64,000 nt of DNA from Muricea muricata (Eukaryota; Cnidaria; Anthozoa; Malacalcyonacea; Plexauridae), in contig OY979724.1 in the NCBI GenBank assembly GCA_963855995.1, positions 5,949,058-6,013,057 on the forward strand, read 5' to 3'. Positions within the stretch are counted from its first letter, which is position 1, and every line of letters begins with the position of its first letter. Positions 16,114-61,590 of the stretch are shown piece after piece. The notes under the pieces were generated by a model. That model did no database searches and was not told the origin of the DNA. It saw nothing but the letters and a program-made list of their open reading frames with translations. Position numbers and translations under genes: made by a program.

Positions 16114-16265
16114 GAGGTTCAGATTTGGCTTCCAATACCTCTACCGCTACCTTAATCTATCTTTTAGCCAATCAGATGTGCCGGACCTACCCGATTAACC
16201 AATCAAATTGTTTAAAGATCGGGAAAAGGTATCGGTAATGGTAGAGGAAGTCAAATCTGAACCTC
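16114..16265. mobile_element. Small inverted-repeat (MITE-like) element
   Basis: The termini GAGGTTCAGATTTGGCTTCC and the reverse complement of the right end (GAGGTTCAGATTTGACTTCC) form inverted repeats of about 40 bp around a short centre. No clear target duplication is seen. It lies between the BEL element and the first visible exon of ZNFX1 copy A. Confidence 0.75.
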
Positions 16266-16738: not shown

Positions 16739-16932
16739 CGTTGCCTTGTATATCGACAAACGCTTAGAGAGTCTTCAGTATCGGCACCTTCCAAAAGAGA
16801 CCCAACAGCATGAATTGAAGATAGGCATGGCTCCACTACGCTCAGGCCATCACTTGGTAAATTTTGTCGGGTCTATGAAGAAATGCATATATTACCGCAG
16901 CACCAAGTATAACGACATGATTATTACAAACA
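16739..16932 (+). CDS. Copy A exon: second half of the LamG-like domain
   Basis: The exon encodes [10 protein letters not shown], a polar loop, [30 protein letters not shown]. It has the same length (194 bp) and intron phases (2 in, 1 out) as the copy B exon at 38232-38425. Amino-acid identity to that exon is 38 of 64. Pattern: beta strands with LYVDxxL and F-x-G-x-hydrophobic ... V-x-Y-x-R, as in concanavalin-A/laminin-G-like jelly rolls. Confidence 0.75.
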
Positions 16933-22900: not shown

Positions 22901-25900
22901 CCATGTAAAGAATGCAAGGAACCTTGCAAATGGAAGTGCAGACATTTCAAGTGCACGAAGCTATGTGGTGAGATTTGCAATCGGCAGCGTTGTAATAAAC
23001 GATGTAGAAAAACCTTGAAGACTTGTGATCACCGCTGCGCCGGTCTGTGCGGAGAACCGTGCCCGAAAAAGTGCTTGGTTTGCGATAAAGACGAGTTGAC
23101 CGAAATTTTCTTCGGCACCGAGGAAGAGGAAGATGCCAGATTTATAGAGCTTGCTGATTGTGGTCACGTATTTGAAGTGAAAGGTATGGACGGCTATATC
23201 GATATGAAAGCGAAGGAGATGAAGAAAGGTGAATCGACCAGCATACAGATGATTAAATGTCCAAAGTGCAGCAAAGCAATACGGACGAGTTTAAGATACG
23301 GTTTGTAGTTTAATCATTGATATTTACATGCATGTATTTATTTTTGACACATTTTGCAAACTCAACGCATCTGGTTTTTTATATTCGGTTTCCAATGTCT
23401 GTTTCACACTGGTGTATTTGTCAGGACTTTTCTTTACCTGGCGCATGTGATTATAACATGCACTGCAAAAAATTCTGAGTAAAAATAACGCAAACCTTTG
23501 AGTAAATGAATGCACCCATAGTTACTCGTGATTTTGAGTAAATTATGCTCTTAAAATATCACTCGAAACCAGGTGTAAAAAACTACTCAAAATAATGGCT
23601 AAACGGAACTCCGAATTTGAGTAATTGTACTCGAAAAATGAGTAAAAGTTACTCAAAAATTGAGTTCAAATTACTCAAATAAAATGCACCCAAATTGACT
23701 CCTAACTTTGAGTAAATGTCCAATTTACTCAGATTTCGAGTAAACCTACTCACGACCACGAGTGAATGTTACTCGAAGAGCAACACGTACTCAGGCATAC
23801 AAACATACACAAAAAATCTGAGCAAACTTGTAAGGGGTCGTAGGTAAACTACATACGCACTAAAAATGGTAGTTAGAATACATCTTCCAAACAAGTTACT
23901 TGAGATAAAACTGTAATTAATCAAGTCGAGTATAATACTACACTGTAAAAACAGATTGGTTAAAACGACCAAAAAAAAATTGGTCGTTTGGATGCATCTG
24001 AGACAACCAGTTTAAATTGGCTGCTTTAACCAATCATTTTTAAAATAGATTTTGGTTAAAATGACCAATCTAAACTGGTTGTCTCAGATGCATCTAAACT
24101 ACCAATTTTTTTTTGTCATTTTAACCAATTTAAAATGACCAAATTTAAATTGGTTAGCCATTTTAAAATGTTTAAAAGACTAGCTATTTAACACAAAAAT
24201 TTAATTTGTGTTACAAAAAGGTGAAATGACATTAAGTAACATGCTTGTAATATTTGCACAGATTACCCCCAATGCATAAACATTTAAGTGTTGACTGGAC
24301 AATGAATCATAAAGATATTTACAAAGCTGACTCATTAAAAAGTGACCAAACTCTAACTGACAGCTATTATACTGATGATCAGCTCTAACCTGAAAGCTAT
24401 ATTATTATGCATGGCTCATATATGTTGCAAAAATAAGTTGTACTGAACTGTAAATGGACATGCAGTAAAAATGATCAGATCTTGCCATTTCATTCAAGAA
24501 CAGTAAAGTGTCAAATGTTCATATCTTATGGCATTAAACAAACTATACCAAACATCAGCATGCCCTTAAGCTTTGAAGTTAGAGCATTTATTTAATATCC
24601 AAATAACAGCTATACAGCTACTCACAATGGAAAAAAAAACTTTTTTGACTACAAGACAGCAGTACCAGCATTAAACATTGATGCATGCCAGCTGTCCCTC
24701 TCAATTTTATCATACCATACTTCTGTTCAATGTTTTGCGGTTTGGCTGCTAAAAAGCCTGGTTTTAGGCAACAAGGACATTCAATGTTTGTAACTAACCT
24801 AGTAAATTAATTACTTCTATAATATCCAAAACTGGAGTTGAAAATTGTGTTGGAACTTCCTGTCTTTCATAATCTGAATACTTTTGACAGCATGCAATCA
24901 GCAACTTGCAACCAATTGTTCGAGCCTTTTATTGAATGACGGAAGCATAACAAAGATGTTTCCATGCATTTACATGCAACATAAACTTGAAGCCAGTATA
25001 GCTAGCTAGCATGTTTTCATACACATAACTGCAATGAATAACACCTTAACACATCATCATCAGCAAAGCTTGAATGAACTTCAGTTATAATTGTCAAATA
25101 AAAAATACCATTAGAAGTATACTCATAGTCGACTTTAAGGTTTTTCTATTGAGTAGGATTTTGAGATAGGATTTTCTCCAATGCAGATTTTTGTAGTAAC
25201 GATACATAAAAAAGTCTCAACGCCGCGAAGCGGCTTGAAATATGAAGATTCTTATTAGTACAGTATAGATTGCTTGGGTACTTAACGTAATTCTCATTTC
25301 GTAGATGGAGAATTTGCTAACTGTTGCCTGAGCCAAAGTCACCTAAAACGTCGTGCGAACTTGTATTTTTCTAAATAAAGTTTTAAGAATGTATGTCTCT
25401 CAGAAGTTGTACGCAAATTAGGCAAACGCATAAACAATACATTTTGAACAGCAATACATTAAAGTGTCATGTGCAAGCTGTAATTAACTTGTTGTAAAAG
25501 ACACAACCCCCAGGGTTTTAAAACTTGAATTTTTCTGCTTATTTCAGAGTAAAGGCACCCAAAACAATCTATTTCAACTAAAACTTCGTACGTTGAGGCG
25601 CTTCGCGAAGTAGAGAGCGGACTGAGATTTGTTCACTTTTTATACACACCCTGTATAGATGTTTGATCCTCACCAAATATACTTAATGCTTTTCTTTTTT
25701 TAGGAAACGTCGTCAAGGCAATCCTTCGTGACTTTGAAGAAGTTAAGAAAGCCATATCATCTAGAGCTATTGCTTCCAACACGTTTCAGACAAAAATCAG
25801 GCAAGATATAGCTGGTGCTAATCTAACAACAGAGTTTCCCAAGGAAATCTTAGACATCGAAGGTAAATTACGGGGGTCAAACCTAACAGGTGAACAACAA

Positions 25901-27372
25901 AACCTCGTTGAAAATCAAGTTCAGTTTCTGAAATTTATTACCAAGCTTCAGCAGATCATCAATCAAGCGCAATCAGTCAAACGCAATGCCATTCGAAGAA
26001 GAAGAGGCTTTCTGGAATCAGAGGACGATTCTGATGACCAAGAAATAGAATGGATGGAATGGGAATTGAAGGATTTGTTGCAATGGATAACGAATAAGTA
26101 TCGATCTCGATTCAGTGACCAAGAACTGGAAGAATTCAATGAAGAACTTCACCGTGTGTGGCTATTGTTTTCGTATTTGGCACTGCGTTTAGAAGCAAGA
26201 AAAAGAAAAGTGAGTTTATCCGATACAGAGACCAGGTATATGGAATACCTGAAGAAAACTCTCGAAGATGGAAGTAAACTTGGTAAGTGTTATACAGGCT
26301 GCCCTAATCCTACAAAGCATTAAAATTCTATTAAGATTATATCGCGTTATCGAGAATGGCTTTCTATTTTTTAACCATACATCCAGACCACAGGTCACGA
26401 ATTCGATTTTAAAAGAGTATAAATTGTACCCAACTCTCTGCCTAAAGTCATGGGTCTCCTCCATAGGTGGGGGTGGAGGTCAACAAATATATAAATAAAC
26501 AAATTAAAGCGAATGGCTCTAAAATTCAAACTGAAAAAAATAAATCATTTACGTTTCACGCGATTGTGTAAATATGCATGATGTCGGTCCAACTTTATCG
26601 ATGTATAGCACTTGAACCCTATAATTTTTAGGCTAGCACTTTGACAATTTTATTGCATACATTTAGATGAACACAAGAAAGAGAAATGTACAAGACGTCT
26701 TAAGCTCATAACACGCAACAAATCACTCGGCGTGAATTATGGAAACGTAACCGAAGCAGAAAAGAAAGTTATTGTCAGCGCTATCGGTCTGAGTCAGGGG
26801 CACTGGTTTAAATGCCCAAAAGGTGAATGACTTATTACTTATAGTACGAATATTGCAATATACTATCATTCTATCACATAAATTTTACTTAAATATTATC
26901 ATTTAGCTGCGTTAATTGTTTGTATTAGATAATTATTACGTGTCAATTTTAAAAATGCCACAGACACCTCTACATAAATGCTGAAACAATAACTGTTGGT
27001 AAAACCCCATGTTCGCCTAAGGCCTATATGGCTGAACTTTACATCATATAATTCAACAGGATTATATACTGAACAGTTTCATTTAAAAAAAATATTAAAG
27101 GCAAATAGCCACAAAAGCTATTCGCGTCAACATACGTCGCCGTGAACTAATCAAAAGTTATTGCAATCTATATTTCAGGGCATATTTACTGTATTGGAGA
27201 ATGTGGTGGTGCAACTCAGGAAGGAAAGTGTCCTGAGTGCGGATCAAGAATTGGTGGAACCCAACATCGTCTTCGTTCTGACAATACTTTAGCTCCAGAA
27301 ATGGATGGTGCAAGACATGCGGCGTGGTCTGATACGGCTAACAACATGCGCAACTGGGACCACAACATTTAG
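16739..27372 (+). CDS. ZNFX1-like gene, copy A: 3' nine exons (5' part not in view)
   Basis: Nine exons join in frame with GT-AG introns: 16739-16932, 18656-19108, 19432-19659, 20503-20669, 20859-21843, 22725-23300, 25704-26282, 26667-26822, 27179-27372. Together they give 1,176 codons plus TAG. Order: second half of a LamG-like domain, acidic/coiled helicase region, motif II (VEEAAEVLE) and III ([10 protein letters not shown]), motif IV (QHRMRPEI), V ([11 protein letters not shown]) and VI (VSLSRAKKG), NF-X1-type zinc fingers, helical region, RZ-type finger. The first exon starts in phase 1, so upstream exons are needed. None is seen in 1-16738, where the BEL element sits. Either a long intron holds the BEL element or the copy is 5'-truncated. 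ZNFX1 proteins are UPF1-like SF1 RNA helicases; in mammals they sense dsRNA at mitochondria. Confidence 0.9.
16933..18655. other. Intron of copy A
   Basis: No coding homology was recognised. It contains an uninterrupted poly-C run of about 20 bases near 18151-18170. The nearby open frames have no family resemblance. Confidence 0.6.
19660..20502. other. Intron of copy A with a Penelope-like tail remnant
   Basis: Around 20289-20320 CTGATGA is followed by a short hairpin and CAAAACGTTG. This resembles the degenerate hammerhead-like tail of Penelope-like elements. A 'cttcatcagggg' segment near 20145 is in the opposite orientation. No coding sequence is seen. Confidence 0.45.
20859..23300 (+). 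CDS. Copy A exons: helicase motifs V-VI and NF-X1-type zinc-finger array
   Basis: Exons 20859-21843 and 22725-23300 carry [37 protein letters not shown] and an [13 protein letters not shown] hinge. Cys/His repeats of NF-X1 type follow ([46 protein letters not shown] | [37 protein letters not shown]). The array ends in the family-specific block [20 protein letters not shown] and [11 protein letters not shown]. The repeats bind zinc and, in the family, nucleic acid or ubiquitin-pathway partners. The intron 21844-22724 shows no recognised feature. Confidence 0.92.
23461..23830. repeat. Cluster of GAGTAAAT/ATTTACTC motifs with a CACTGYAAAAA end
   Basis: After CACTGCAAAAAATTCTGAG the sequence contains more than a dozen degenerate GAGTAA and TTACTC words in both orientations. 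This suggests a palindrome-rich non-autonomous DNA element. The right end is not clear. It lies in the copy A intron 23301-25703. Confidence 0.6.
23941..24180. mobile_element. Foldback element built from TTGGTTAAAA / TTTTAACCAA words
   Basis: CACTGTAAAAACAGATTGG starts a segment whose halves are reverse complements: 'gatgcatctgagacaacca' near 23991 pairs with 'tggttgtctcagatgcatc' near 24077. It shares the CACTGYAAAAA start with the preceding cluster, so both may be related DNA elements. Confidence 0.65.
24181..25703. other. Remainder of the copy A intron
   Basis: No exon or clear repeat was recognised. Short GC-rich words 'gcgaagcgg' (25225) and 'gcttcgcgaag' (25601) lie in opposite orientation next to 'ctcaacg'/'cgttgag', perhaps the ends of an old element of about 400 bp. 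Confidence 0.4.
25704..27372 (+). CDS. Copy A exons: C-terminal helical region and RZ-type zinc finger
   Basis: Exon 25704-26282 encodes a helical, charged region ([26 protein letters not shown], acidic [24 protein letters not shown]). Exons 26667-26822 and 27179-27372 encode [12 protein letters not shown] | [12 protein letters not shown] and [11 protein letters not shown], a C-H-C-C arrangement of the RZ-type finger. The family-specific tail is [14 protein letters not shown]. In human ZNFX1 the RZ finger is a ubiquitin-ligase module. The 3' exon is nearly identical to that of copy B, while the helical exon is much more diverged. Confidence 0.9.
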
Positions 27373-27964
27373 AATTTCATAAATGTCTTGCAAATCAATG
27401 ATTGATTTCTTTTTGTAATTTCCAGTTGGACTCTCTGCACATTTTTCCCACGAAAGGTGATTTATCAATTTTAAAAAAATTCAAGATTTCGGATGAATTC
27501 TTTAACACGAACTTTGAGAGGCAATGATATTATGCATCAGGGGCACTAAGGTTGTTTTAAACGGTGTTTTTTCCAGTTCCAAACGAAAACGAACTTTACT
27601 GTGCCATATGCGGCATATGCTGCAGTTAATATTTAAATTCAACAAAAAATATTCTTCCAGAAAGTGCTCAATTGGAGAACTGCTTTGGTATTTCGTACGA
27701 TTGAACAGGGATATTATGCTCCACTTATTATTTCAAAAATTCTGTGTTGTAGTGTAAAGTAAACAAACACAGGAATATAAAAGCGTCCAGTTGGGCCGTT
27801 AGTTCAATATATGATGTGATTACTGAAAATGCAAAACAAACCGATGCATTTAGTCAAATAGTTATCAAACGAGGGCCTATGTTTGACATATGCTATTAAG
27901 TCATAATATGCTATAGTGTTGCAGAGTAACTTTACAGACAAAATTCGAGTTCAAGGGCAAATTT
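27373..27964. other. Spacer downstream of copy A
   Basis: No gene was recognised on either strand. The stop of copy A is followed by AT-rich sequence; no canonical AATAAA was identified close to it. Confidence 0.4.
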
Positions 27965-28163
27965 CCCCTGGAGGGAGGTCCAAGTACACGAGTATCCACT
28001 AACATGGTTGTATGTAGCCCGGTGGAGAAGGGAGCGTACGGCGGGGAAGGAAAATCAAATTTTAGTACGCTAAACTGTTTTTTATTTTGAAGTCCATAGC
28101 AGCTGCCTAAAATGCATGTGATAAACGGCATGGATACCAATGCACTTGAACCTCCCCCAGGGG
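27965..28163. mobile_element. Foldback element X (about 199 bp), copy 1
   Basis: It begins CCCCTGGAGGGAGGTCCAAGT and ends with the near reverse complement ACTTGAACCTCCCCCAGGGG. Partial copies occur at 28702-28825 and about 31865-32093, so it is a dispersed family. It appears inserted in element Y, which continues on the right. Confidence 0.75.
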
Positions 28164-28713
28164 CGTAAATAGGGAACGACGGCAACGTACGTCTGCGGTA
28201 TAAACATACTGTATAAAAAACCTGTCGTTTGTTATCGATGATATGAATTGAATATGGCGTGAGATGATAAAATCCGGTGTTTTCTTGTTACGAAAAGGTC
28301 CAATTTAGTTTTAGCAAATTTTCTTAGTCTGTCATTCTAGCTGTCGAGTTGCAGACACGACGTAAAAGTATATGTTTTGGCGTTACAACGAGAACAAAGC
28401 AGACCTCTTCATCTTTCCTGAGACTTTGATTATTCATAGTAATTTTAAGGTCATTGTATTGCCAGCCGTTTTCATCGCGTTGACGACCTGCAGCTTAAGT
28501 TCCCTATACTATTAGGGAAGTGGGTGTCTCCCTCCAAATTTACAAATGGTGATTGTGTCGGACAAAATTTCATCGTCTCAAGGCCATATTCAATTCATAC
28601 CATCTATAACAAACGACAAGTTATTTATACAATCGATTATTTGAGTCAGCATGTTTTTACTGTAGACGTCGCGCGTTGTCGTCTTAAGTTCCCTATTTTC
28701 CCCTGGAGGGAGG
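28164..28713. mobile_element. Foldback element Y with ~140-bp inverted arms
   Basis: The left arm (28164-28285: 'gtaaatagggaac', 'cctgtcgtttgttatcgatg', 'atgaattgaatatgg') is matched in reverse complement by 28561-28700 ('ccatattcaattcat', 'aacaaacgacaag', 'gttccctat'). The arms are long relative to the centre, as in foldback/MITE elements. A further left-arm copy lies at 32094-32245 in intron 1 of copy B. Confidence 0.7.
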
Positions 28714-30745: not shown

Positions 30746-31427
30746 ATGGCGAGTGGATTTAACCGGCGCTACACTGTAGATAGTTTTTCCTCGCAGCCAC
30801 GGAGCTATGGAAGGGGCAGGGGAAGAGGAGGTCGTGGAAGGGGAAGACAAAATTTTCACGGTGGACAACGACAAGGTGGTAACGTTACATTTGGTTTCGG
30901 AGCCTTGCAAAAGCTACGAGAAGTAGATCCTGATGATATTGTTTTGGATTTGGCTTCTGAGCGGTGTCTCCCAGGTTTTCGAGAATTGTTAAGGAAGACG
31001 AATATGTCGGATGAAATGACTGAGCTTGTCCTGGAGGTGCTTGCTAGAGCATGTGACAGTAATAGTCCTGAGTATTTTAATAAACTTCTTGTTGAACTTC
31101 CAACATCATATTATGTTATGATATGTTTGAAAGGATGCATAACGCGCCTGGGTCGTTTGGCAGGCTTTAACTCAGACCCCCAGGTGTTCCTCGAAAGAAC
31201 TGTTAAACTCTTCACTATAATTCTTCAAAGAATACCAAATGCATACAATTCACTACCCCTCGGAGACCTTGAACAAGCCGTCGATAGATTGGCGAGGATG
31301 AAAAAGATTGCCCCACAAGTTATTCAGGACATAAAACAGCTTGAAGTTATTAAACAAGAATCAATGGAAAAAGAAATTCGCAAGAGAGAACTTGAAATTC
31401 AAAAACGATCGCGAAGTCGTAATCCAG
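30746..31427 (+). CDS. Copy B exon 1: RG-rich tail and helical N-terminal region
   Basis: The ATG was chosen because it opens the frame directly before an arginine/glycine-rich segment ([15 protein letters not shown]) typical of ZNFX1 N-termini. An armadillo-like helical region follows ([54 protein letters not shown]) and a charged helix ([19 protein letters not shown]). The donor is CCAG|gtttgt, phase 1. The RG-rich part probably binds RNA. Confidence 0.88.
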
Positions 31428-34400
31428 GTTTGTTATTTATTTTTTTACGCAGCCTTGTGGACATTGTTCAACGCGCATCCTTCCTTGATCTTAAATAATT
31501 CGCTAAAGGTTACTACTGTATCTTACTTTCTATAAGCGAAATGTCTGGCGAAATCACCGCATCAAGAGGCTTGAATTTTAGGTACAACATGTTAATATAG
31601 CATGAATATGACAAGTCAAGTGAGCGTCAGGGGAATCAATAAACGTTCAGTTTCTTCTATCTCATAATTCGGCAAGGGAATGGAAGGCTGCACTAGTCAT
31701 TCCAGCATTTGCTACACTTAGTGAAAAAATCGAGAATCTATAGAGTGGGAAAATCCTCAATAGTGCCGATTTACCGAATTCAATGCAATAGAATTTGCCA
31801 GAATCCATGGAATTGTCCGACAATTCCCACAGTATGGTAATGTGTAGTTGTAGAAACTTAGAATCCATTCTATCACCACTAACATGGTTGTAGCCGGAGG
31901 AGGAGGCAGGGGGGGGAGCGTGCAGCGTAGAAACATCAAGCTTTGGTGCGCTAAATATTTTGCTTCGCGAGCTTCAAGGAAATGATAACTTTTCCCCCAT
32001 GCAATAGTTTTTTATTTTTAAGTTCACAACAGCTGCCTTAAATGCATGAGATAAACTGCATGGATACCAGTGCACTTGAACCTCCCCCAGGGGCGTAAAT
32101 AGGGAACGACGGCAACATACGTCTGCGGTATAAACATACGATATAAAAAACCTGTCGTTTGTTATCGATGATATGAATTGAATATAGCGTGAGATGATAA
32201 AATCCGGTGTTTTCTTGTTAAGAGAAGGTCCAATTTAATTAAATTTGGTTGTCTCCCCCCCCCCAAAAAAAAAGTACAAGTATAGTGACTGTGTCACGAA
32301 AATATCGATAATTGCTCGCGCAAAAGTGCAGGAAAGCCTAAAAGTAAGGTTAAGCGGAAACTGAAAGTGACATTTCTAAGGCTCCAATTTTTCAAAATTT
32401 TTCTCACTCGGCGCTAACTATAGATGTCATCCATTGTTTTCGAAACAATCTAGATCACATACCATAATTTTTTATCCCTCTCAGTTTCACCCCCTATAAA
32501 AGTTTATACTCGAGTTACGGCCCTGCGCACCCCCTAACTACGGATTTTCATACAGTTCGTACTCCTTAAACATTTCTACCATTTTTAACAAAGTTGATGA
32601 AGTTGGACCTCCACCTGAGGATTTTAGAGAATTGACAATCATCCCCCACCGTGATGACATCTTCACTGAAAAGAAGCCTTACCTTCGAAAGAACTTAATC
32701 CAAGGAGCTTACCAAAACCTCGACCATTACTTGGACGTGCAGTTCAGGCTTTTGCGTGAGGATTTTCTACGACCATTGAGAGAGGGTATCATAAACCTTG
32801 TTCACAAGGGAATTGAACAACAGCAAGGCGTATTCAAAGACATTCGCATGTACAGAAATGTAAAGATCCTGTATCCAGTGTGTTCAAAATCAGGTCTACG
32901 CCATCATATTCAATTTGATAACTCAAGGCTGAAACGCGTGAAATGGGAAAACAGCAAGCGACTTATATTTGGCTCATTGTTGTGTTTGTCGAAAGATCAT
33001 TTCCAGACCTTTGTATTTGCAACGGTCGCCGACAGAGACCCGAGAGAACTTGCATACGTAAGTTTTCTACTTATTTACATCGATATTAGTAATCTGAGTT
33101 TGGAAAGAAAAAAAGGTTTATAGGGGAAGTGAAAAGGAAAATACAGAGCTAAAAGCAATTTTCACAGAATAGAAGAATTCTAGGATTAAGCTTTTTCATT
33201 TACAGACAGTGTAAAGGTTATTATATGTTGTAAGCCATTAATTTCAAGGAGTTAAACTAGCTCCACTATACATTTGCGCATGTGCGATATAATTGTTCGA
33301 GCCAACAACATCGTTGGTCCGTAAAAGGGGTACTAAGGTCCCTACAATTCATATAGAAAATTTTTTCGTTCTTCATTTAACTTATTTCAACGTGGGTTTA
33401 ACATTTATTCATGGGGGTAAGTTTGACAACTTAATGCGAGCGTTATTGCAATGTCAAAGAAGTAAAGTTGAAGCTGATTTTAGCTGATTTCGTCCAGCAT
33501 CCCTGGAAAAAGTATGATACCTTGCACGTTTTCTGCGATCTAACCGAAGAAAAAAAATTTTTACTTCCTAATGCTATTATTATTCAAGCTTAACGGAACT
33601 AACACTTTTTACGACAGGGTAAACTCACCGTGCAGTTTATGGACATGACGATTGATCTGCAAGATTTTTCACGCAAAAACATCTACGAAATGGTCGAGAC
33701 AACCGCATATTTTGAAGCTTACAATCCTATTCTGGAAGGACTACAACAAACAAAAGAGGAAGATTTGCCCTTTCAAGTGAGTAACGAAAGCTGGGACACT
33801 GATTTAAATATAAAAAATAGAACTAGCAATAGCTTTTTAGGGGGGTATACAAAACAATCTTTGAAACAAGACCATCGTAATTTTATTACTTGCAGAGGTA
33901 TTTGATAGAATGCAACAAAGACATTCAAGCACCACAATACCTGAGACATAATCGCTTTCAACTGGCACCAAGTTTTGACTTTTCTTCCATATTAATTGGC
34001 GATGCCGCATCAGATGTATATGCAAGTTTACAAAGGAACTTTCAAAGCCTTTCTTTACATGGTAATTCCAAAAGCGACTTTTTTCAACTGCATGTCCTGA
34101 ACTGTAAACTTACTAATGGATTTTTCCTAGGGTTTTACAGGAACAGGGCACCGCGATTTAAAAATGTTCCCGTACTAGAAGTGAATAGTTGGCCAAATAA
34201 GGAGCAACTTGGCCTTGACGAATCTCAATACGAAGCATTAAAGATTGCTCTTACGAAAGAAGTTGCTGTTATTCAAGGACCACCCGGAACAGGAAAAACA
34301 TTCCTTGGTCTCAAGGTGAGAAAGCCCCTTAAAAAGGCTCTGCGGAGAATCCTAAGATAAAGCATTCTGTTTGGTTCCTTCATGAAAGGTCAGACCCAAT

Positions 34401-37400
34401 TGGTTTTGATTTTACATTTTTGAAGATTTAAACACATGTTTGAACATTTTGTCCTTTTTTATAGCCAATGACGCTTAACAGCTCAATATTTAACAGGATT
34501 CTTTTGCTGTTCAGTTTACCCACTTCCTTGAAAATGTTGAAGTTTTTAAATTTGAATTTCTACTTTTACTTGGCTTCATATCTGTGTATTCCACAGTCAT
34601 CATTATTAAATCAAATGCTACCTCTTATGTGCCTTTGACTCATTCTTTTTCGCAGATAGCAAAGCTTTTGCTTAATAACACAAATACATGGATCCATGGT
34701 GAAGAAACAATTGTTGGAAGACATCGCGAAGTGCACCAAACTCCGATACTTGTTATATGTTTCACAAATCATGCATTGGATCAGTTCTTGGAAGGAATTT
34801 ATGACTTCCACGGAAGCAACGAAAACAAAATTGTACGAATCGGTGGCCGCAGCAAAAGTGAGAAATTAAAGAATTGCAATTTAAAAGCAATCAAAGAAAA
34901 AAGCAACAAAAGAGCACCGCGCTACGTGGGACGAGGCATAGCTGAGGTGTATTCAAGACTTGAGGGAGTTAAAAGTAAGCTAGCTACTTGTAGATGGTTT
35001 TCATTAGCATTCATAATTAGGATGTTTTATATACATCGCAAAAATATACACCAATATTGTACACTAAAGATATTGTTCACTAAAGATATTTATCGCTATG
35101 CGCATGTGCATAGACTAAGAGTCTTAACAAAGATTTTCGGGAGCGCGTGAAATGTTCACAATTGACCCCATACACCACAATATCAATTATTGGAGAAAAA
35201 TTGAATCCCAAAAGCTAATTTGCACCCAAATATGAGTGTCGTGGTTCAGTAAGTCAGCAATTACTAAATCAAGGGTGTTATTAAAGTATTTTGAGTACTA
35301 ACGTAAGGTGTGTACTGGGGGCATTTGTTTCCTACTTAAATAGATAGGGAGGGTACATTTTTTCAGCTCGCTTGGACATAATTCCCTCATTTCATCTATT
35401 TTACAATTAGAAAAAATGGAAATTTCTTCCAATGTAATCAAAAAATGTTGGCAGGACATATTGTACGAGAGGACACTAGAAAGAGCAGGAGTGGTTAATC
35501 AACATCATTTCTCTTCTCTCATGCGACCATTCATAACATTCGGAGGTGGTCCACCAGAACCAGGCTCTGTACTATTAAAATGGCTTAATCTTGTTGCAGA
35601 CGATGATCGGACAGAGCCAGGTAAGACCATTTAGCGACACAATTTGATTTTTGAGGAAAAAAAGGATAAAATAAGAATTGTCTCGTAACTTGATAGCTGT
35701 AGTATGGAAAGTATGCAATCATTAATATTGGAAAAAGTGAAAATTCTAATTCCAATAAAATAAAGGTTCCAATTATGGATCTCTTTACAAGGATAGTCAG
35801 GTCCTATATCTTGATTGCACAATATTCAATTAAATTCTTAACGGGCTGGAAAATATTCTTCTCTATAAAACACATCAATTTATGTGAACTAGTTCCTAAA
35901 TTGATTGTCCAAATTTGTTAAGCTGCATATAAACAGTCCTTGGGACACCGCGATACAATATTACAGTTAAAACTTTTCCTTATATTTATAAAATGTATAG
36001 AGGAACTTGAGATATTTGGAGACGATAATGAAGTCTCTTTCAATGGAATGCAAATGGTCAGCCTTGCAACACTACCGCTGGCGGGCGTTGACTTTTCATT
36101 CTGCGTCCACATAAAGACGAACCGGGCAGGAAACATAGTTAGCAATTTGCCAGAAGACAGAAGATGGACTAATGAATCTAAAGCTCTCTTTGTTGATGCA
36201 GCTGGGATTGTTAAATTCGTGTCCAGTGAAAATATCCTTTGTGAGAGTTCTTCACGTGTAGATGATGACAGTTGGCACGAAATTGCCGTGGTTTACTCAT
36301 ATGAGGACAATAGGTATGGTTTTGCAATGCGTTTTCGAATAGTTTGAAAGTAAACAATTTAACAAACTTAAAAACTTGTGGTTTCAGTCGCCATGTAGGG
36401 TGTCCCAAAAAACCTAACGCCTTCTAAATTCAAATCAGCCGTATAGCTAGATTGACCAAATTGGAGTTGCTGAAATTTCCTCTAAATTTCTGACGACAAC
36501 GGTATATATCAATATATACCGCACTCAAAAACGAAAATGGCCATGGGAACGGGATTGATACCGCACTGCTAGTTTGAAATACAAATACGTCCGTTTTTTG
36601 GCTATATACGGTGCATATATATTTTGGATATTCCTGACATCAGTTCTATAAGTTTCTATGCACTTCATCTTATTTCATTTAGTCAAAATAATTTTTCTCC
36701 ACCAGTATAATTTTTATCCAAGCATGTCATCTTATACATCTAGCCAGGACAAATATTTTTGTCGAATAATATTAAACGTTAACCCTCAACTTAACTCACA
36801 AAAGTTACTGAGATTGGATAATCATGGTAGATATTCTATTTTAAGACTGCGCGTACCTACTATCCATAATAGTTTTACTAGAAGTTGTTCGTGAACGCTA
36901 AGGTTCAGGCGATGTTGAACGTGTAGTTGAACGTGAGATAGTCTCGAAGCTAAAGGTTTCTGTTTACATTTTATGCTTGAAGTTATTTCAAAATTTGATG
37001 TTTTTCCACATGTTGTCGATTCATCTTGTTTGCAGTATCATTAATTATTATATGCCGAGCGGTCCATCCGCCAAAATAGTGCATTGTGGTAATTAGTATG
37101 CGTGAGTAGACGAAATGACAAGTTGTTTGCATGTTTTAAAACAATGAACTGCTAGAGAACGAGACATTTTTTTGAAAAACTAAAAACGCCTTGTTACTTT
37201 ACTTTAACATTAAGTTTGACTGAATTCAAGAATAGACAAATGATTTTTCATGACACTGCCCCTTTAAAAGATTATCTTCGTTGTGAAACGGGCTGAAGTA
37301 TAAATATCTGAAAGTGAGAAATACCCGAATGTTTTTATCATGCCCAAGAATTTTAAAAAACAATGTTTCACTAACTTCTTTCACACGAGGTTCTTAAACT

Positions 37401-40400
37401 AATCAACCATTTAGTAAGATTATTGAAAATGTTAAGTTTTTGTAAACAAGTTCTGTTTTTACCTTGCCATATAAATAGCTGATTGACCGAGCTTGTTTGG
37501 TCCGTACCTCTGGGTCCGTACTGGAAGATACTGTACGGTGTCGTTCTATTTATCGAGCCGTAGGCGAGGTCGACAAATAAGCGAAAAATGAACATGACCG
37601 TGCAGTATCTTCCTGTACGGACCTCTCGCTCAGTCAATAATATACAAATAATGAATGTTTATGAGTGCAATGGTAAGAATATTTTCGTGAGGTGAAAGAT
37701 TGATTGTTCCATAAATATCTGAAAACTTACAAAAAACGAGCTGCTGCAAAACCTGGCGAAAAGTAAACAAGAAAAATAGTTCTTTTGCATAATAAGCGTC
37801 GTTTCCATTACGCAAGAAGGCGCGGTTACTAAGTTTCGCAATTGGTCTATTTCGAACTTTAAATATGAAAATTTCCCGCCATTTTCCTACATTTAGTTAT
37901 GCGCGAGAGATCAGCGCATGGCTACGCGAAATACACCGAGTACAACGCTGGCGTGAGGAAAATTCGACAATAACTTTGTATAAACTAGGGTGTCCGACTG
38001 GACAATTTGAAGTTGAGATATAATATTTTGCTATAGTCAAATACCGTTCCAAAATGTTTTATGTTTACTTTTGGAAGTGACATTTGAGGGTCATATTGAG
38101 GCACCCATTTCCCCCTTGTGGGCCACTTCCCTTCCTGCGTAATCTTGTTAAACTTAAATCTTGTTGTTTATCACCTTGTTGCTGTGACGTCGCTCGAGGT
38201 TATAACTGTCACTACATCATTTACTTTTTAGCCTTACTTTGTACGTTGACAAACACTTACAAAGTTTCCAGAATTGTCGCCTCCCAGAAGAGACCCAATC
38301 GTACAACGTCAAGATAGGAGTTGCTCCATTGCATTCACGATATCGTGTGGTAAATTTCGTCGGGTCTATGAAGAAATTTGTATATTACCGCAGCACGAAA
38401 TATAACGACATGGTCAGGGGAGACAGTAAGTAAAGAATGTAGCAAGTGTAAGAAGTATATACTCATGCAGGTCAAGGATACTGTATAAACTAGAATCGAC
38501 AGAAATAGTACAGGTATAATAATAAACATGATAGAATTATTAGGATAGTTATTTGCACTTTTTCAGCGCTGCCATTTTTTCTCAGATATCTTCGAATGTA
38601 TTGAATAAATAAATAGATAGAAATGATAAACAAATCGCCAAAAATACTCACAAAAATGTCGGACTTAAAAGTTAACTTTATTTTCTTCATTCACGAGCGG
38701 GCAGAATCCTGTATAGCCTTTCCGGCAATCTGATTGGCTGCAGCAGCGGGCAGAATTTTACGATTTCTTGACCGCTATCTAAAAGTTGAGCGGTCCGTAT
38801 AGGAAAAAACCGGATCGCTCGTCATCCAATCAGATTATAGGATTCAGTGGAAAACCGGACCGGGAAAAAATAAATTAAATTATTAGCGGCACAGAAAGCG
38901 GTTGTTTTTACCTTAAATAAATCAACCTTCTTCATAATACCCCTTTTACAGCTATCAGAAACTTGTCGTATTGTTATTTCTAATCGATAGTCGGCCAATC
39001 TTGTGCGACGTTCGTGTAGCATTGTCGGTTTAATATATTCCTAAGACTGGTTAACTACAACGAACAAAATGTAAATAAATTGTCGACTGTTAAATACAAG
39101 CACTTAAAAAACATACAAATATTTTGGAAACTTAGAGCAATAACGAAACGAAAACTACAGGATATGGAACAAAGAAAACTTTACCCTATTCTTTACAATT
39201 TTCCCGTTTCAAATCCTTTCCGAAACACAGGGGGGGGAAACGAGGGTTCTGAAAGTTTTTCCAGCTACGGAAATATTTTTTCAAAACCTATGCCAGGGAC
39301 ACCTATCGTCATCTTTTTGAATTTCCCTGTTTTCACCTTTTGGCTGACATCCTTTTGCTACAACTTCAGCGGATAGGCGAAGGCAGAAAATTTCAAAAAG
39401 ATGGCCACTTATTCCTTTATTGTTGTAAACATTTGTTTCTATAACAGAAAATGTGGAATATGAAATTGATTTTATGCAAGACCAAAGAAGGATTGACGAT
39501 GGAAATGATGCATTGGATAATCATGGTCCCCCCGTAGCCGACGATTTCGATGTAGTTGATCCAACAAAATTCTCCCGCGGAGGATCTGGCGAATGGCAAG
39601 TGCAAGACAAGAGACGAGCAAGAAATAAAATCATTTTTGAAATAAAGAAACAGCTACAAAACGAAGATGTGATGACAGACAACGAGGAATTTGCGATTCA
39701 AGACGTATGGAGGCTAACAGTCAAAAATCGCTGGCGCTTGTACCGGAAATGGGTCAGAACTATCAGTCAGCAGCACCAAAACACCATAGCAAGCGTGCAG
39801 AATGAATACGACCAGGGAATGAAAGAGCTACAAGAATTATGGAACGCGCAAGATTATGAACTTCTTCGGGAAGCTCACGTCATAGGAATGACAACAACTG
39901 GTAAGCAACATCACAGTAAAATAGACATCATCATTATCATAATTATACCCAACGACACGGAATCAGCCGGCTTTTGTTATGGCTTACATGCTGTTTTGCT
40001 TTGTACGTACAAAAACTAAAATTCCTCATTTCTTTCAATACGGGTAAGAATAAGGTAAACTACGTAATAAAAGATTTGTGAAAGATCGCTTTGTTATGGG
40101 ACGGATTATAGAAATGTTTTATCTTAATGACCATACAATATGGTGGCTGGCAGCTAAATGACCCCGCAATACTATGGTGTGACAGTAAGCATTTAAAGAT
40201 AAAAGTTATTTCTTAGACGAGTTGAAACGAAATTAAATTAAATTTAATTATTTAAACATAATGAAACTGCTATGTCATACATTTAAGCTTATAATTGTAC
40301 CTAATTTTCAGTGAAACTAAAAAGCTCTAAACATATGCTTTTCGTATACATCTCATTGTTACAGGATTTATGTCACGACTTGCACTTGTTGAAGAGAAAT

Positions 40401-43400
40401 GGCAAGAAAAATTTCGTGTTTTGAAGAAATTTCTATATTCAAAACGTGTGGTAATATCATTGAGATGTTCGCCACCAAAAGATTATTGCCATTAGCTACT
40501 GTATCTTGCCAGAAGTTTCGGATCCAACTAGTAAAATATATCATCGTCAACGTATCAATGTGCGTTCATTTTGATTAAAGGGGCTGCCAAATATCGTAAC
40601 CTTTTACATCGTATAAAGCCGAAGATAACAATTGTTGAAGAGGCCGCTGAAGTTTTGGAATCACATATCGTAACGGCATTAACAGGAGGATGTGAACATC
40701 TAATTCTGATTGGAGATCACAAGCAGTTGCGACCAAAACCCACCGTGTTTCAACTGGGGTTGGATTATCAGCTGGATATTTCGCTGTTTGAAAGAATGGT
40801 TGAAAACGGTAGGTGAGAGGGTACCTCCTGTGATTAAATGGCCCAGTAACCCGAGGGAGTTACAAACCTGCCGACGGTAAGGGACATTTAATGACTAATC
40901 TCTCTCAAGCTATGCTATTAGTTTGTAATGGCATAATTGACCAGCGTTTTCAAGCGCATCATTTGTTTTTACTAATTGTTAAAACTGCAGTGTTTTGTTG
41001 TTGTGTAGAATGTAACTACTGCCATGTTTGACCATGAATAACCGAACGGCGGGCGATTAGTTAGTAATCGACCCGGTAAAAACAAAAACAAAACCAGGCA
41101 ACCTATGCTATTACATACATTGGGTAATGTAAAAATAAATTATCTTAAGACATCCATATCGTTCACACAACCTTTAACACTATTACCTACACACAATACT
41201 CATTTACGCACAACATTGAAGCTCCAAATACGCATAATTAATGAGAAGTTGAACCTCTGTATACCCTGTGCTTTGGCAGAGCGGAGCTAGTATTAAGATG
41301 ATTTTAAAATAATTCAAAATCAAATTTATAATACGGAACTCTGATTGGGCCACCACCATCACTCGATCTCAGACCTCCAATTATTAATTCAATATTGCGC
41401 GACGCGTCACAAACACTGGAAACGGGAGACTGGAGACGGGAAAAAAATAACGAGACCGAAATTATGACACGGTTCACTTCGTGACCCGTGCAATTAATCA
41501 ACACTGTTTATTAAAACGGAATACAACTCGTAGAGACCGTCAATATTTTTCCGTACGAGTCCTGCGGGTTGGTATCTGAACGTTAACATCATTTAAAATA
41601 AGATAATTTTGATTTTTAGGCATGCCTTTTGCTTGCCTGCAAGCTCAGCACAGAATGCGTCCCGAAATTTCGGTGATGATGCGTCCTATCTACAACAATT
41701 TGATGGATCACGAATCCGTGAAAAATTTTGAAAGAATTAAAGGAATCAACAAGAACATCTTCTTTGTAGATCACCAAGTAAAAGAGGTAGCTAAAAAATT
41801 TTTAACGGTATGCAAAGAAGGCCCGAGAAGTCTATTTTTTATTATATGCACGTACGAAAAAGCTGATGGGGTAGTCAGTTAATTTTGCAAATTAGGAAGC
41901 ACAGAAGCGCTTTCCATTAGTAATGATTAAGAGATAGAGGCAAAAAATTTTATACCTTCTAAATTTCTCCGAAGTTATTTAAAAAGTCTCAAACAATTGT
42001 TGCATTTTTTAAACCCCTGACTACTGGCGCATCAGAAACGATTCTGTATCAAAATTTTTAGGATGCTGTTGATGAAAATCAAAGTCACTCAAACATTCAC
42101 GAAGCTAAATTTATCGGTTCGCTGTGTGGATATCTACTCCAGCAAGGGTATTCGCCCTCCCAAATTACAGTGTTAACACCTTATAGTGGTCAACTATTCC
42201 AACTCAAGAAGTTTGTGCCAAATGAAGAAGGTTTAAGAGTGTGTGTTGTTGATAATTTCCAAGGTGAAGAGAATGAAATCATTTTGCTATCCCTAGTCCG
42301 AAGCCAAGATATTACATCTACAGAGAAAAAGAATATTCGTAGGTCGATTGGGTTTCTGGCAATAGACAACCGCATTTGCGTGTCTTTGTCGAGAGCAAAA
42401 AAAGGTTTCTTTTGTGTTGGCAACTTAACCTTGATGAGAGCGGCTAATGATCTCTGGTCGAAAATTCTTGACGACATGGAAAAAAGAGGTTGTGTGGCCA
42501 AATCTCTACCACTAGCGTGTCAAAACCACCCGACAACAATTACGCATGTCAGCAAGGACTTAGATTTCAACAAAGCTCCACTCGGTGGTTGCAGCGTCAA
42601 CTGTGGAGCAAGATTGGACTGTGGTCATAGATGTGAGCAGTTCTGCCATCCAACAGATCCAAATCACAAAGAATACGACTGCAGAAAACCTTGTCCAAAA
42701 ACATGCGAGCGCGGCCATCCCTGCACACGCCGTTGCTACCAAGAGTGCAATAGATGTACGGTTCCGGTTAGAAAGAGAGTTCCCGGATGCAATCATACCG
42801 TCACAATGCCATGTCATCGGGATCCTTCCACTTTTAAATGTACCGAACCGTGTCCTAAAAAGCTTCCTTGTGGTCATGCATGCCCAGCACAATGTGGAGA
42901 ATCTTGTGCAAGAAAATGCCTAAAGGACGTCACCAAAACCTGGTCTCCGTGTGGTCACAGATGCAAAACTAGATGTTATGTTGACCTTACGAAGACTCCG
43001 TGCCCGGAGCCTTGCAACGTTTTATTGAGTTGTGAACACAATTGCAAAGGTAAGTGTCTATGAATAAGACATTGAAAATCGTAAAGATACTTCAATGCAA
43101 TCTAACTTATTGGAATGGTCAATAGCAGACGTCGTAAGACTATGTATATAGCATTGCATACGAAAGTCAAGGTGAGCGACCAAGAAAAAATGAAGTCAAT
43201 ACCAAAGAGGTTACTGGCGTTTATTGATGTTGACGGCAGGCAGACACTCAGAGAGGCTCATTTCTATGTAATAGGAGGAAGAGGATGAGTTTCTGTGTAA
43301 ATTCTACGTTATAGACATCAACTCAATTCATTTACATTTTCCTTGTGCATTAGGTACTCAAACGCCTTAAGTTTTTGGAAATGGGAAAACCTGAAACCTG

Positions 43401-46400
43401 AAAAGCTTGGACATACAGCCATTTTAGGTTGAGCTTTTAACGGAAGTCGTTGTCGCGTTTGTTATGGGCGTTGCAACGTGACGTTTCTATGAGAGCAAAT
43501 ATGTGTTGGTTGTGCGGGAACGACGCATTGAACTCAGCTTCGTTAAACGAAAGCTGTATATTCATGTAAGTTACGCCAGTTAAAGAACGCAACAAATTGA
43601 CTGTTGTGTTGGTTGTTTCGCAGTATCTTTTTAATCCCACTGCTCGTTCACCTACAGGAGCGTGCCCACACGATCTTGATTCATTTGTTGGCAACTTTAC
43701 CCCGCATTCATCGTAGTATTTCAAGGTGTGGGGATCCTTTCAGTCTGAGTAATCTATAAAGACTTGTGTGTACGCCATGTTTTGAACTGTAAATCGTTCT
43801 TAAACAACGTGTGTCATTTTTTAAAAGGTCCCATCCTAGACATTCTGCACCGAACTGCATATGCTCAGTGCTGTACTGCACTGCATATGCTCAGTGCTGA
43901 CCAAATTCAAACAATTTTTCTTCTATCTCAGAATATGAAATAGAAGGCCTATGCATTTACAAGGCTTCAATAAACCTAAGTTGCTGGGGTTGCCGCCACC
44001 GTGTTTACGCGGCTGTAGTGACCCGGTCTCGCAAAACTGTCTTCAACATTTAGAAACAACTATCGAGGACAACTTTAATTCATTGGCAATTTCCCCATAC
44101 CGTTCGGGAAAATAGCCGTTGCCTCAATTCCACCTCTTTCGGTAATTCTGTCAATAATATTTGATCTTGATTCCTCGGACAATGCCTTGCTTGGTCGGTA
44201 AGACCTAACTTTTACATTAACTTTTCACATTGTACTTTCGGTAACGAACCTGAATTCAACGCCGATCCCGCCCTAGCAACACCTATTTACTCCCATAGGA
44301 ACGTCACGTTGCAACGCCCACAACAAACGCGACAACGACTTCCGTTAAACACTCAACCTGATTTGTCTCAACTTTGGTAAAGATTTTTGGCTATTTCAAC
44401 CAGCGCAACAAATAATGACTGCCCCCAGATTTACTAGTAGTCATGCATTTTAAACAACGCTGTATATAACTTTAAAAATAACTTTCGTTTTTCGTGTGGC
44501 TTCTAGGTACATGTGGTGGATGCAAGCAAGGCCGAGTTCACCTACCATGTTCTTCAAAATGTGGTCGTGTGTTATTCTGTGACCACAGCTGCAAAGTGCC
44601 TTGCACAAAGAACTGCCCACCATGTCCTGAAAGGTGCCAAAACAAATGCCCACACAGCAAATGCCAATACAAATGTGGGGACCCATGCAAAGAATGCAAG
44701 GAACCTTGCAAATGGAAGTGCAGACATTTCAACTGCACGAAGCTATGTGGTGAGATTTGCAATCGGCAGCGTTGTAACAGACGATGTACAAAAACCTTGA
44801 AGAATTGTGATCACCGCTGCGCCGGTCTGTGCGGAGAACCGTGCCCGAAAAAGTGCTTGGTTTGCGATAAAGACGAGTTGACCGAAATTTTCTTCGGCAC
44901 CGAGGAAGAGGAAGATGCCAGATTTATAGAGCTTGCTGATTGTGGTCACGTATTTGAAGTGAAAGGTATGGATGCCTATATCGATACGAAAGCGAAGGAG
45001 ATGAAGAAAGGTGAATCGACCAGCATACAGATGATCAAGTGTCCAAAGTGCAGTAAAGCAATACGGACAAGTTTAAGATACGGTTTGTTGGGAATATTTA
45101 TGTATTTATGTATACGTAACTGTAACACGTTTCATAGAATTTGCTGAAATCTCTTCATTTTCCTGCAGTTGTGCATGCTTTTTAGCTTAAAATATCATCT
45201 TCAGTTTCTAGCCGGACAGCGGTCTACGGTCTTCTCGGGGATTGAAAGCGATTGTCCTGCAGAAGACGCAAAAATCTCTGTTTCTGACCTGGTAAAATAA
45301 TAGCCATGTACATCTTAATTTACTTTCCATGGAACTTACTAATTGCGTTCGAATAATGTTCCTGCACGTACGGACAAGATATCTTAGGCTATTCTAAGCA
45401 TTACCAATATATATGGAATTATTTTCTCTCTTGTTACTAGGAAACGTTGTGAAGACAATCCTTAAAGATTTTGAAGGCGTTAAGAAAGCCATATCATCAA
45501 AACGCACCGGCTCTGCACCTATGTTTCGAGCAACAGTGAAACAAGATATTCGAAATCATCAATTAAAAATCGAGTTTCCTATTGAAATTTCAAAAATTGA
45601 AGAGAAGTTGGAGAAACCATTTTCAATTGAAGAACAAAACGTCATTGAAAATCAAGTCGAATTCCTGAAATTTATGATCAAGTTGAAGAAAGTCATCAAG
45701 GAATCAGAACCAGTCAAAAGCAACAGCCTGGTTTATTATTTCCAATGGCGCGAAAGAGTTGATGATCCAGAAATAACTTTGATGAAATGTGAATTGGATA
45801 GTTTGCTGGAGTGGGTGATGAGGGATCGGCAACGTTTTAGCGAACAGGAACTGGAAGAATTTAACGACGAACTTCATCGAGCGTGGCTGATGCTGTCGTA
45901 CCTGGCACTGCGTCTAGAAATACGAAAGAGAAACATCGAGCTATCCGATAACGAGACGAAATATATGAGCTACTTGAAGATACTATTTGACGCTGGGACC
46001 AAATTTAGTAAGTAGGTTGTTTGTCTGTTACGCCATCTTCGGAATATTCATAATGCCTTCACGAGCACCTTTTAATTAGTTATCGTTTAGTGATATTTCT
46101 TAAATACGCTATCTTCTCAAAGTTAAGTCAAACGAGATACACTAGCCAACGATCAAATTCTACATTATAATTAAGATAATAAAGAAAAAAAACATTTTGT
46201 TAAAACAGCAAATGCCATGGGTTTTTTAAATAACAGCATATGATCATTGTTTTTTCGTTCGAGGATTTCACAGTTGTAATTCTTGTTTGCAAGTAATGTG
46301 CAAAACGACTATATACAAACAAAACAATTAAATACACTAACTTTCATGCCTTAATGGTTTACAAAAATGTTAAATAATTTTATGCATAATTTTATTCTAC

Positions 46401-47885
46401 ATTTCTACATAGATTTCACGACGTTGTCGCATTCCAAATATGTTTTATTGAAGCATTTAATTTTACTATTTAGCTGAGGAGGAGAAAAATAACTGCGCAT
46501 TATGCCTGAAGTACTTTAAAGAAAATAAATCACTTGGTGTAAAGTACACAACCGTCACGGAAAAAGAAAAGGCAAACATTGTCAAAGCTATTGGTCTCAG
46601 TCAAGGTCATTGGTTCAAGTGTCCAAAAGGTAAAAACAAGTGTACATTTTTGTCTTAGGTGGGCGGGTTGGGGGATTTCAAGCAGTTGAATTCGGATTCA
46701 ATGCACAAGTTACTTTATAAACTCTAAAGTTAATGTTTTTCATCGCGTGTATTAACTCCTTTATTGAATTATGATAACTATCTGAATTGTCATAACTGGG
46801 AATATTATACCTCAAATTTGAAATTGTCCAATCAAAACTCCATTTGAACCACGTTACAATGAGATTTTTCGTGGTGTCGAATGCCCATTCCCCGGTTTTC
46901 GAGGGTGTGATATTAACTTTATCTCACACGTCCGGCGAGAGCTACACGGCAATTTTGAATATTATATATTTGAATAGCGTAATAGAGAAACAAACAACTC
47001 ATATTATTTGCATTAAATGTTAATCTTTTATCAACACTATAAGCTTAACATGTATTATTTAGAACTTTTGTGGTACTTTGTTCGATTCGAGCGGTTTTCG
47101 GCACTGACTTTTAGGGCTTATGTGGTACTGTTATAAATTAATGAGAAGGCAGGTAACTCGGCCGACAAGCGCCCTTATTAAAACGCAAATATCTCGAGGT
47201 AAACACGCTCCCTGCGAAAACAAATACCATCACAGCAAAGCCAAAAGATAGCTCTACACGCTCGATGCAGTTTTTCATGCGATCGAACAAATTCTGCGGC
47301 GTACGAAGCGATCGCAAACGATATTACACAGTTTTTAATTTTCAGCAATACGTGACGACATGAAAGCATGCTTAGCAACCAGGCAATAACAGATTTTAGA
47401 CCTGGTTATACTAAAATCGGTTCATGCAGGGAATTTCTTTTACTGTTCATTTATAGTGCTAAATTCTTTCCAAACATACAAATAAAATAGTACCATTTTT
47501 GCAATATCTTGTAAACTATTCTGTAATAATAAAGTACAACCCTGGAGCAACATTCTAAATGATTCTCGGACTGTTCAGACTGTAAGGAAATCTAATCAGA
47601 AATTAAGCAGCTTACAGATGTACTGCAGCAAATGAACTGATTTTTCCCAAGAAAAAGAAATTAGTACCAAACAGTTATTGCATCCTTATTTCAGGGCATA
47701 TTTACTGCATTGGAGAATGTGGTGGTGCAACTCAGGAAGGAAAGTGTCCTGAGTGTGGATCAAGAATTGGTGGAAGCCAACATCGTCTCCGTTCTGACAA
47801 TGCTTTAGCTCCAGAAATGGATGGTGCAAGATATGCAGCATGGTCTGATACGGCTAACAATATGCGCAACTGGGACCTCAATTAG
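30746..47885 (+). CDS. ZNFX1-like gene, copy B: complete, 16 exons, LamG module inside the helicase
   Basis: Exons: 30746-31427, 32594-33057, 33618-33776, 33896-34315, 34656-34974, 35411-35620, 36001-36313, 38232-38425, 39448-39900, 40581-40808, 41620-41786, 42062-43049, 44507-45082, 45441-46007, 46474-46629, 47695-47885. All introns are GT-AG and all phases match, giving 2,028 codons plus TAG; human ZNFX1 has about 1,918. Order: RG-rich N-terminus (1-40), helical ARM-like region, SF1 helicase with Walker A (GPPGTGKT, about residue 563), LamG-like insert (about 752-920), motifs II-VI (about 1085-1300), NF-X1 fingers (about 1350-1680), helical region, RZ finger and conserved tail. Known ZNFX1 roles are dsRNA sensing, antiviral signalling and small-RNA inheritance in germ granules. 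Copy A lies 3.4 kb upstream in the same orientation. Confidence 0.93.
31865..32245. repeat. Elements X and Y, partial copies in intron 1 of copy B
   Basis: The segment ends TGCACTTGAACCTCCCCCAG GGG at 32093 and continues into an element Y left arm. It is the same X-then-Y order as at 27965-28285, so the pair probably moved or was duplicated as a unit. The rest of intron 1 (31428-31864 and 32246-32593) has no recognised feature apart from a C-rich run near 32258. Confidence 0.65.
32594..34315 (+). CDS. Copy B exons 2-4: N-terminal helicase region with Walker A
   Basis: Exons 32594-33057, 33618-33776 and 33896-34315 encode the conserved segment with [17 protein letters not shown] and [17 protein letters not shown], a beta-rich domain ([16 protein letters not shown]), and the Q/Walker A part: [32 protein letters not shown]. 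The intron 33058-33617 has no recognised feature. Within exon 4, 34062-34130 is a 69-bp stretch starting GT and ending AG with no stop. It could be either a linker or a retained short intron. Confidence 0.9.
34656..35620 (+). CDS. Copy B exons 5-6: helicase motifs Ia/Ib and connector
   Basis: Exon 5 has [19 protein letters not shown] (motif Ia) and [18 protein letters not shown] (motif Ib region). Exon 6 (35411-35620) encodes a helical connector ending [16 protein letters not shown] in phase 1, where the LamG module follows. The intervening introns (34316-34655, 34975-35410) show nothing recognisable. Confidence 0.88.
36001..38425 (+). CDS. Copy B exons 7-8: concanavalin-A/laminin-G-like module inside the helicase
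   Basis: Exons 36001-36313 and 38232-38425 sum to 507 bp (169 codons). They begin and end at phase-1 introns, so the module can be removed without changing the frame. Motifs fit the LamG_3/ConA-like jelly roll: [42 protein letters not shown], the diagnostic [10 protein letters not shown] strand, [33 protein letters not shown]. In the family such domains bind glycans or proteins. They are normally extracellular, so an intracellular helicase insert is unusual. The split exon pair and the conserved second exon in copy A show it is not an annotation artefact. Confidence 0.8.
36314..38231. other. Intron within the LamG module of copy B
   Basis: The intron holds a foldback element at about 37477-37642. 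No other coding homology was recognised. Confidence 0.55.
37477..37642. mobile_element. Inverted-repeat (MITE-like) element
   Basis: The left end ATTGACCGAGCTTGTTTGGTCCGTAC matches the reverse complement of the right end (TTGACTGAGCGAGAGGTCCGTAC). The inner part is also palindromic ('gaagatactg...cagtatcttc'). Confidence 0.65.
38426..39447. other. Intron of copy B
   Basis: The segment 38690-38870 has related words in opposite orientation ('tccggcaatctgattggc', 'catccaatcagatta', 'agcggtccg', 'cggatcgctcg') and may be an old foldback element. The rest shows nothing recognisable. Confidence 0.4.
39448..41786 (+). CDS. Copy B exons 9-11: helicase motifs II-IV
   Basis: Exon 39448-39900 has acidic and coiled segments ([38 protein letters not shown]). 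Exon 40581-40808 has motif II as [12 protein letters not shown] (the family form of DEAA) and motif [13 protein letters not shown]. Exon 41620-41786 has motif [12 protein letters not shown]. Exon lengths (453, 228, 167) are identical in copy A. Exon 40581-40808 differs from copy A at only 7 of 228 bases, all silent. Confidence 0.92.
39901..40580. other. Intron of copy B
   Basis: No feature was recognised. It is unrelated in sequence to the matching copy A intron despite the near-identical following exon. Confidence 0.5.
40809..41619. other. Intron of copy B
   Basis: No coding homology was recognised. Short inverted words occur around 41450-41580, without clear ends. Confidence 0.4.
42062..45082 (+). 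CDS. Copy B exons 12-13: helicase motifs V-VI and NF-X1 zinc fingers
   Basis: Exon 42062-43049 has [34 protein letters not shown] (motif V) and [11 protein letters not shown] (motif VI). NF-X1 repeats follow ([60 protein letters not shown]). Exon 44507-45082 continues with [43 protein letters not shown] and the [13 protein letters not shown] block. Compared with copy A, the 12th exon is 3 bp longer and the 13th equal in length. Confidence 0.92.
43426..44359. mobile_element. Non-autonomous DNA element, 934 bp, with ~100-bp terminal inverted repeats
   Basis: The left end AGGTTGAGCTTTTAACGGAAG and the reverse complement of the right end AGGTTGAGTGTTTAACGGAAG extend as inverted repeats for about 100 bp. 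They share 'cgttgtcgcgtttgtt' and 'gggcgttgcaacgtgacgtt'. No transposase is seen inside. A 29-bp direct duplication ('gcatatgctcagtgctg') lies near 43857-43915. It sits in the copy B intron 43050-44506. Confidence 0.85.
45441..47885 (+). CDS. Copy B exons 14-16: helical region and RZ-type zinc finger
   Basis: Exon 45441-46007 is a helical, charged region ([44 protein letters not shown]). Exons 46474-46629 and 47695-47885 give [12 protein letters not shown] | [25 protein letters not shown] and the tail [16 protein letters not shown]. Introns 46008-46473 and 46630-47694 show no recognised features. The last exon is nearly identical to copy A, while exon 14 is only about half identical by eye at the protein level. 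Confidence 0.9.

Positions 47886-52326: not shown

Positions 52327-61590
<9,264 letters not shown>

Follow-up and report, generated by a model that had tools for sequence, protein, structure and literature searches.

A two-exon laminin-G module, probably acquired by exon shuffling, within the helicase region of tandem ZNFX1-family genes in Muricea muricata

The window analysed here is a 64,000-nucleotide (nt) stretch of the Muricea muricata genome (C9:5949058-6013057; 453 Mb in 74 contigs), and positions below refer to this window unless prefixed with a contig number. On its + strand, from about 30746 to 47885, lies a gene for a ZNFX1-family helicase, termed copy C, in which two exons encoding a laminin-G (LamG) module are spliced between the sequences for helicase motifs Ia and II. 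A tandem copy located upstream, copy B, carries the same module. ZNFX1 acts in antiviral immunity as a helicase, whereas LamG modules are found mostly in extracellular proteins.

LamG exon 1 (exon 7 of the gene; 36001-36313, + strand, 313 nt) is entered in phase 1 and left in phase 2, and its assignment is based on splice sites, frame, Pfam and a single-exon fold. LamG exon 2 (exon 8; 38232-38425, + strand, 194 nt) is entered in phase 2 and left in phase 1. The intron between them occupies 36314-38231, the previous exon ends at 35620, and the next one starts at 39448, giving intron phases of 1 (35620/36001), 2 (36313/38232), and 1 (38425/39448). All four splice sites have consensus sequences (tag/AG at 36001, AG/gtatgg after 36313, ttttag/C at 38232, and A/gtaagt after 38425). 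Joined, the exons form a module of 507 nt and 169 residues that is open in frame throughout; because these 507 nt lie between two phase-1 introns, skipping of both exons would leave the frame unchanged. The two exons, their symmetric phase-1 outer introns, and the full compatibility of all phases had been proposed in a first-pass annotation, and the splice sites, phases and open frame confirm them. That annotation placed the module at codons 752-920; the module itself holds, but the numbering includes 23 codons of a probable 69-nt in-frame intron (34062-34130), such that residues 730-898 are nearer. The LamG intron also contains a 39-nt inverted repeat (82% complementary, 37513-37623), perhaps a small transposon remnant, which was set aside as irrelevant here.

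When compared to Pfam profiles, the joined module scores 29.5 bits against Laminin_G_3 (PF13385), narrowly passing the curated cut-off of 27.6, and 27.2 bits against Laminin_G_2 (cut-off 22.9). The match spans module residues 17-156, and hence both exons, each of which scores under the Laminin_G_3 cut-off when taken alone. Folding of LamG exon 1 alone yielded an all-beta model with neurexin LNS domains as its top matches, a partial result that concerns one exon only, and a PDB search with the module as a single sequence returned only noise. The initial assignment to LamG is therefore borne out by the Pfam scores, with additional partial agreement from the fold of exon 1. Similarity of fold shows no function, and sugar binding by the module is at most a possibility.

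The host gene encodes a ZNFX1-family protein. Its best PDB match is human ZNFX1 (PDB 9q9z; E 1.1e-255), its ZNFX1 domain (PF25396) scores 107.1 bits against a cut-off of 27, and both AAA_11 and AAA_12 are above cut-off. The strings that are presumed to represent the helicase motifs occur in the expected places relative to the module, with I (34277) and Ia (34764) before it and II (40634), III, V and VI after it, in that order. Exon boundaries were assigned from splice sites and reading frame and by comparing the gene to its tandem copy. The 5' part (30746-35620, + strand), encoding the ZNFX1 domain and motifs I and Ia, consists of exons 30746-31427, 32591-33057, 33618-33776, 33896-34061, 34131-34315, 34656-34974, and 35411-35620, and there is no canonical acceptor to fix the exon 1/2 junction. 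The 69-nt intron at 34062-34130 contains no stops and is thus hidden within an apparent exon, 33896-34315; it is considered probable because this apparent exon aligns in copies A (described below) and B only as two separate pieces, and a straight read-through in copy B encounters six stops. Downstream of the module, the helicase and NFX1-type cysteine-rich part (39448-45082, + strand), with motifs II, III, V and VI and with AAA_11 and AAA_12, is encoded by exons 39448-39900, about 40581-40808 (exon 10), 41620-41786, 42062-43049, and 44507-45082. The C-terminal exons (45441-47885, + strand) are at about 45441-46004, at a position ending at about 46632 (start not fixed), and at about 47692-47885. 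The last of these encodes an RZ-type zinc finger (PF20173, 58.6 bits, profile positions 17-53), which is split by an intron and has its first part in the penultimate exon, as judged by similarity to a paralog on contig C7. The earlier description of the host as ZNFX1-like stands, with the correction that the gene extends as far as about 47885, where two additional exons encode the RZ finger. At E 0.01, exons 12 and 13 gave no match to an NF-X1 zinc-finger family, although the first cysteine-rich stretch does align with human ZNFX1. A search of viral and genome contig collections with exon 12 found no relatives.

Human ZNFX1 shares with copy C the ZNFX1 domain, the superfamily 1 (SF1) helicase core, and the NFX1-type cysteine-rich region, and yet differs at the site of the module. 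Aligned blocks stop at human residue 851 and restart at 966, and the intervening segment is 240 residues here (module included) compared to 114 in human (852-965), with no counterpart to LamG. Both the location of the module inside the helicase, between the strings for motifs Ia and II, and the absence of such a domain from human ZNFX1 at this place bear out what had been supposed from the first reading. Similarly, no LamG was found at this site in the open frames of three ZNFX1 paralogs on contigs C7 and C2, all of which are intron-poor. Instead, one C7 paralog has a strongly acidic stretch, the other C7 paralog has a very long low-complexity stretch, and the third has a shorter stretch. For six more distant ZNFX1-like loci, covered by a genome search with the module only, that search gave no match. 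Four distant ZNFX1-like matches are located within 30 kb of one another (C6:14349563-14379196), possibly another expanded helicase family.

Copy B spans C9:5939887 to about position 27363 of the window and has the same exon set as copy C. The 5' half of copy B, together with its LamG exon 1, is upstream of the window (C9:5939887-5948467), with LamG exon 1 (exon 7; C9:5948155-5948467, + strand, 313 nt) just outside it. LamG exon 2 is at 16739-16932 (+ strand, 194 nt, phases 2 and 1), and the remaining 3' half, with motifs II, III, V and VI, the zinc fingers and RZ, is at 18656-27363 (+ strand). The module of copy B has no stops, and its exon lengths (313/194 nt) and phases (1-2-1) are identical to those of copy C. 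The intron that splits it is 17,328 nt long, of which window positions 1-16738 are a part, and is filled with retroelement genes (1302-15802), seen as open frames with matches to the families of reverse transcriptase, endonuclease, integrase, and DUF5641. In a further copy, copy A (C9:5875619-5885001), only exons 1-5 are present within the stretch searched, and it may be truncated.

The two LamG modules, from copies B and C, are 62% identical in amino acids over 165 codons, with a nonsynonymous divergence (dN) of 0.224, a synonymous divergence (dS) of 1.046, and a dN/dS of 0.21 (bootstrap 0.12-0.35). The rest of the protein shares 80% identity over 1793 codons, with a dN/dS of 0.22 (0.19-0.26). 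The module thus evolves faster in absolute terms and yet is under constraint similar to that on the rest of the gene. Although its lower identity could suggest accelerated evolution or positive selection, this was rejected because the dS of LamG is also higher and its dN/dS equals that of the rest. Both copies therefore retain the module under purifying selection, so its translation and use are very likely. Elsewhere in the two genes, dS is low (0.14-0.17) for exons 10, 13, and 16, perhaps as a result of gene conversion; exon 10 (19431-19658 in copy B, about 40581-40808 in copy C) is identical in amino acids, with a dS of 0.14.

A search of the genome with the ZNFX1 module identified seven places: four belong to ZNFX1 copies B and C, and the others lie on C1 (two) and C6 (one). 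Starting from one of the non-ZNFX1 matches, a back-search again gave seven places, which fall in these five genes. The closest relatives found in this genome are the LamG modules of three genes (L031, L032, and L033), at 26-30% identity. The exons near these LamG modules encode tectonin in all three genes and VWA in two of three (VWA was not found in the stretches scanned for the third), and there is no helicase. The tectonin, VWA and LamG exons at each locus probably belong to one gene, with products that would be secreted. The three LamG_3 modules are likewise encoded by two exons. In all five modules, including those of ZNFX1, phase-1 introns are at the borders and a phase-2 intron is inside, the latter located 13 codons and 2 nt from the start of a conserved tryptophan codon. 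Three control genes were picked from 73 LamG_3 places for a match that ends at a similar profile position; read by eye, their break lies at a different point and the phases differ.

Overall, these observations are best explained by the shuffling of a two-exon, class 1-1 LamG module into a phase-1 intron of a ZNFX1-family SF1 helicase gene, which is considered probable. The position of the module, its phases, its domain family, the second copy, and the selection on both copies are all observed features, and the common 1-2-1 phases together with the exact position of the inner intron provide the strongest evidence for exon shuffling. The direction, into ZNFX1, is inferred because the module is absent from human ZNFX1 and the three paralogs. 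The receiving intron would have been the one between motifs Ia and II, at a linker that is variable in the other ZNFX1 proteins compared; the source would most likely have been the LamG of the small tectonin- and VWA-bearing family of secreted type; and the insertion would predate the duplication that gave rise to copies B and C. Since identity to the candidate donors is only 26-30%, a third donor, now lost, is possible. The purifying selection speaks against a dead insert, although selection for correct folding by itself would give the same signal.

If the two exons were cassette exons, included in some transcripts only, then both canonical and LamG-bearing isoforms would be made. The frame-neutral skipping of the 507 nt, and the retention of this symmetry in both copies, would allow for this, but exon shuffling predicts the same symmetry equally, and cassette use is thus possible though rather doubtful. 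It is unlikely that LamG was instead present in an older cnidarian ZNFX1 and subsequently lost from the intron-poor paralogs. Its absence was read in three paralogs of one genome only, and their intron-poor state could be derived; however, human ZNFX1 has no matching stretch, and the exact intron position is common with the tectonin-bearing genes. Alternatively, the module could be a neutral passenger that entered a disordered linker able to tolerate it and is translated with no function of its own. Symmetric phases preserve the frame, and the linker is naturally variable, as the acidic and low-complexity stretches of the two C7 paralogs indicate. In contrast, the dN/dS of an unconstrained passenger would drift towards 1, and the observed value of 0.21 (0.12-0.35) is accompanied by an absence of stops and by exon lengths that stayed the same despite roughly one synonymous substitution per site; although selection for proper folding alone is possible, a passenger is improbable. 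Finally, the gene structure was deduced from genomic DNA alone, but chance open frames or exons of another, nested gene are a highly implausible source of a module that is on the same strand, has fully compatible phases, exceeds curated Pfam cut-offs, and recurs in a second copy, arranged in the same way and with exons of equal length.

The module would presumably fold into a lobe of its own, carried on a flexible loop, and leave the helicase motor unbroken. Such a lobe could add a docking surface in the P-loop-containing region without disturbing the motor. Its partner might be a protein, as for neurexin LNS domains, or a glycan exposed to the cytosol, and binding could place or gate the antiviral-type helicase. 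This docking role is proposed tentatively, and a second ligand for the helicase, as suggested in the first-pass annotation, is no more than a possibility. Mammalian ZNFX1 is a sensor of double-stranded RNA whose P-loop region binds NLRP3 (PMC11574294). A more specific and distinctly speculative proposal is an innovation of the cnidarian lineage, in which an intracellular antiviral helicase took up a recognition domain of extracellular type within its motor. The product would be a two-input sensor that reads RNA via the helicase and another ligand, protein or glycan, via the LamG lobe, which would also gate the RecA1 domain. Ligands could include, for instance, glycans from ruptured vacuoles, whether of microbes or of algal partners.

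Other features of the region and genome were also recorded. Short dispersed direct repeats are present at 27962-28310 and 32007-32240, including one pair that is 94% identical and 3.9 kb apart. On the - strand, 56065-56427 has a short resemblance to GDP-mannose 4,6 dehydratase that is below the Pfam cut-off (21.5 bits compared to 27). One GFP-like gene is present in the same genome, and its nearest PDB sequences are DsRed-type fluorescent proteins, in keeping with a cnidarian, perhaps anthozoan, genome.

In the literature searched, which did not include the survey of metazoan ZNFX1 helicases by Blasi et al. (2022), no paper connects ZNFX1 to a domain of LamG or concanavalin type; the only one mentioning both ZNFX1 and laminin G is a review of gastric cancer. 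The architecture may already be described in that survey of metazoan helicases or in databases. An extracellular-type LamG within an intracellular helicase motor, constrained in two copies and with a source traceable in the same genome, would represent a clear case of natural domain grafting in innate immunity. It also raises the question of whether ZNFX1 of this animal lineage reads something besides RNA.

Several known systems resemble parts of this arrangement. Neurexin LNS and laminin LG domains are similar to the module in the best partial fold matches and in weak profile similarity, but these are parts of extracellular proteins and are not inserted in an enzyme. The lectin insertion of Vibrio cholerae sialidase (PF09264), which matches two of the five modules weakly (best E 4.4e-4), likewise places a LamG-like lectin domain inside an enzyme, although this enzyme is bacterial, extracellular, and unrelated to ZNFX1. 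With regard to origin, a 2021 review (PMC8001218) describes phase-1 modules as having built extracellular proteins for the most part, and names muscle proteins as intracellular cases. Titin and other intracellular muscle proteins with class 1-1 modules are a comparable case, in which modules bordered by phase-1 introns were likewise shuffled into an intracellular protein.
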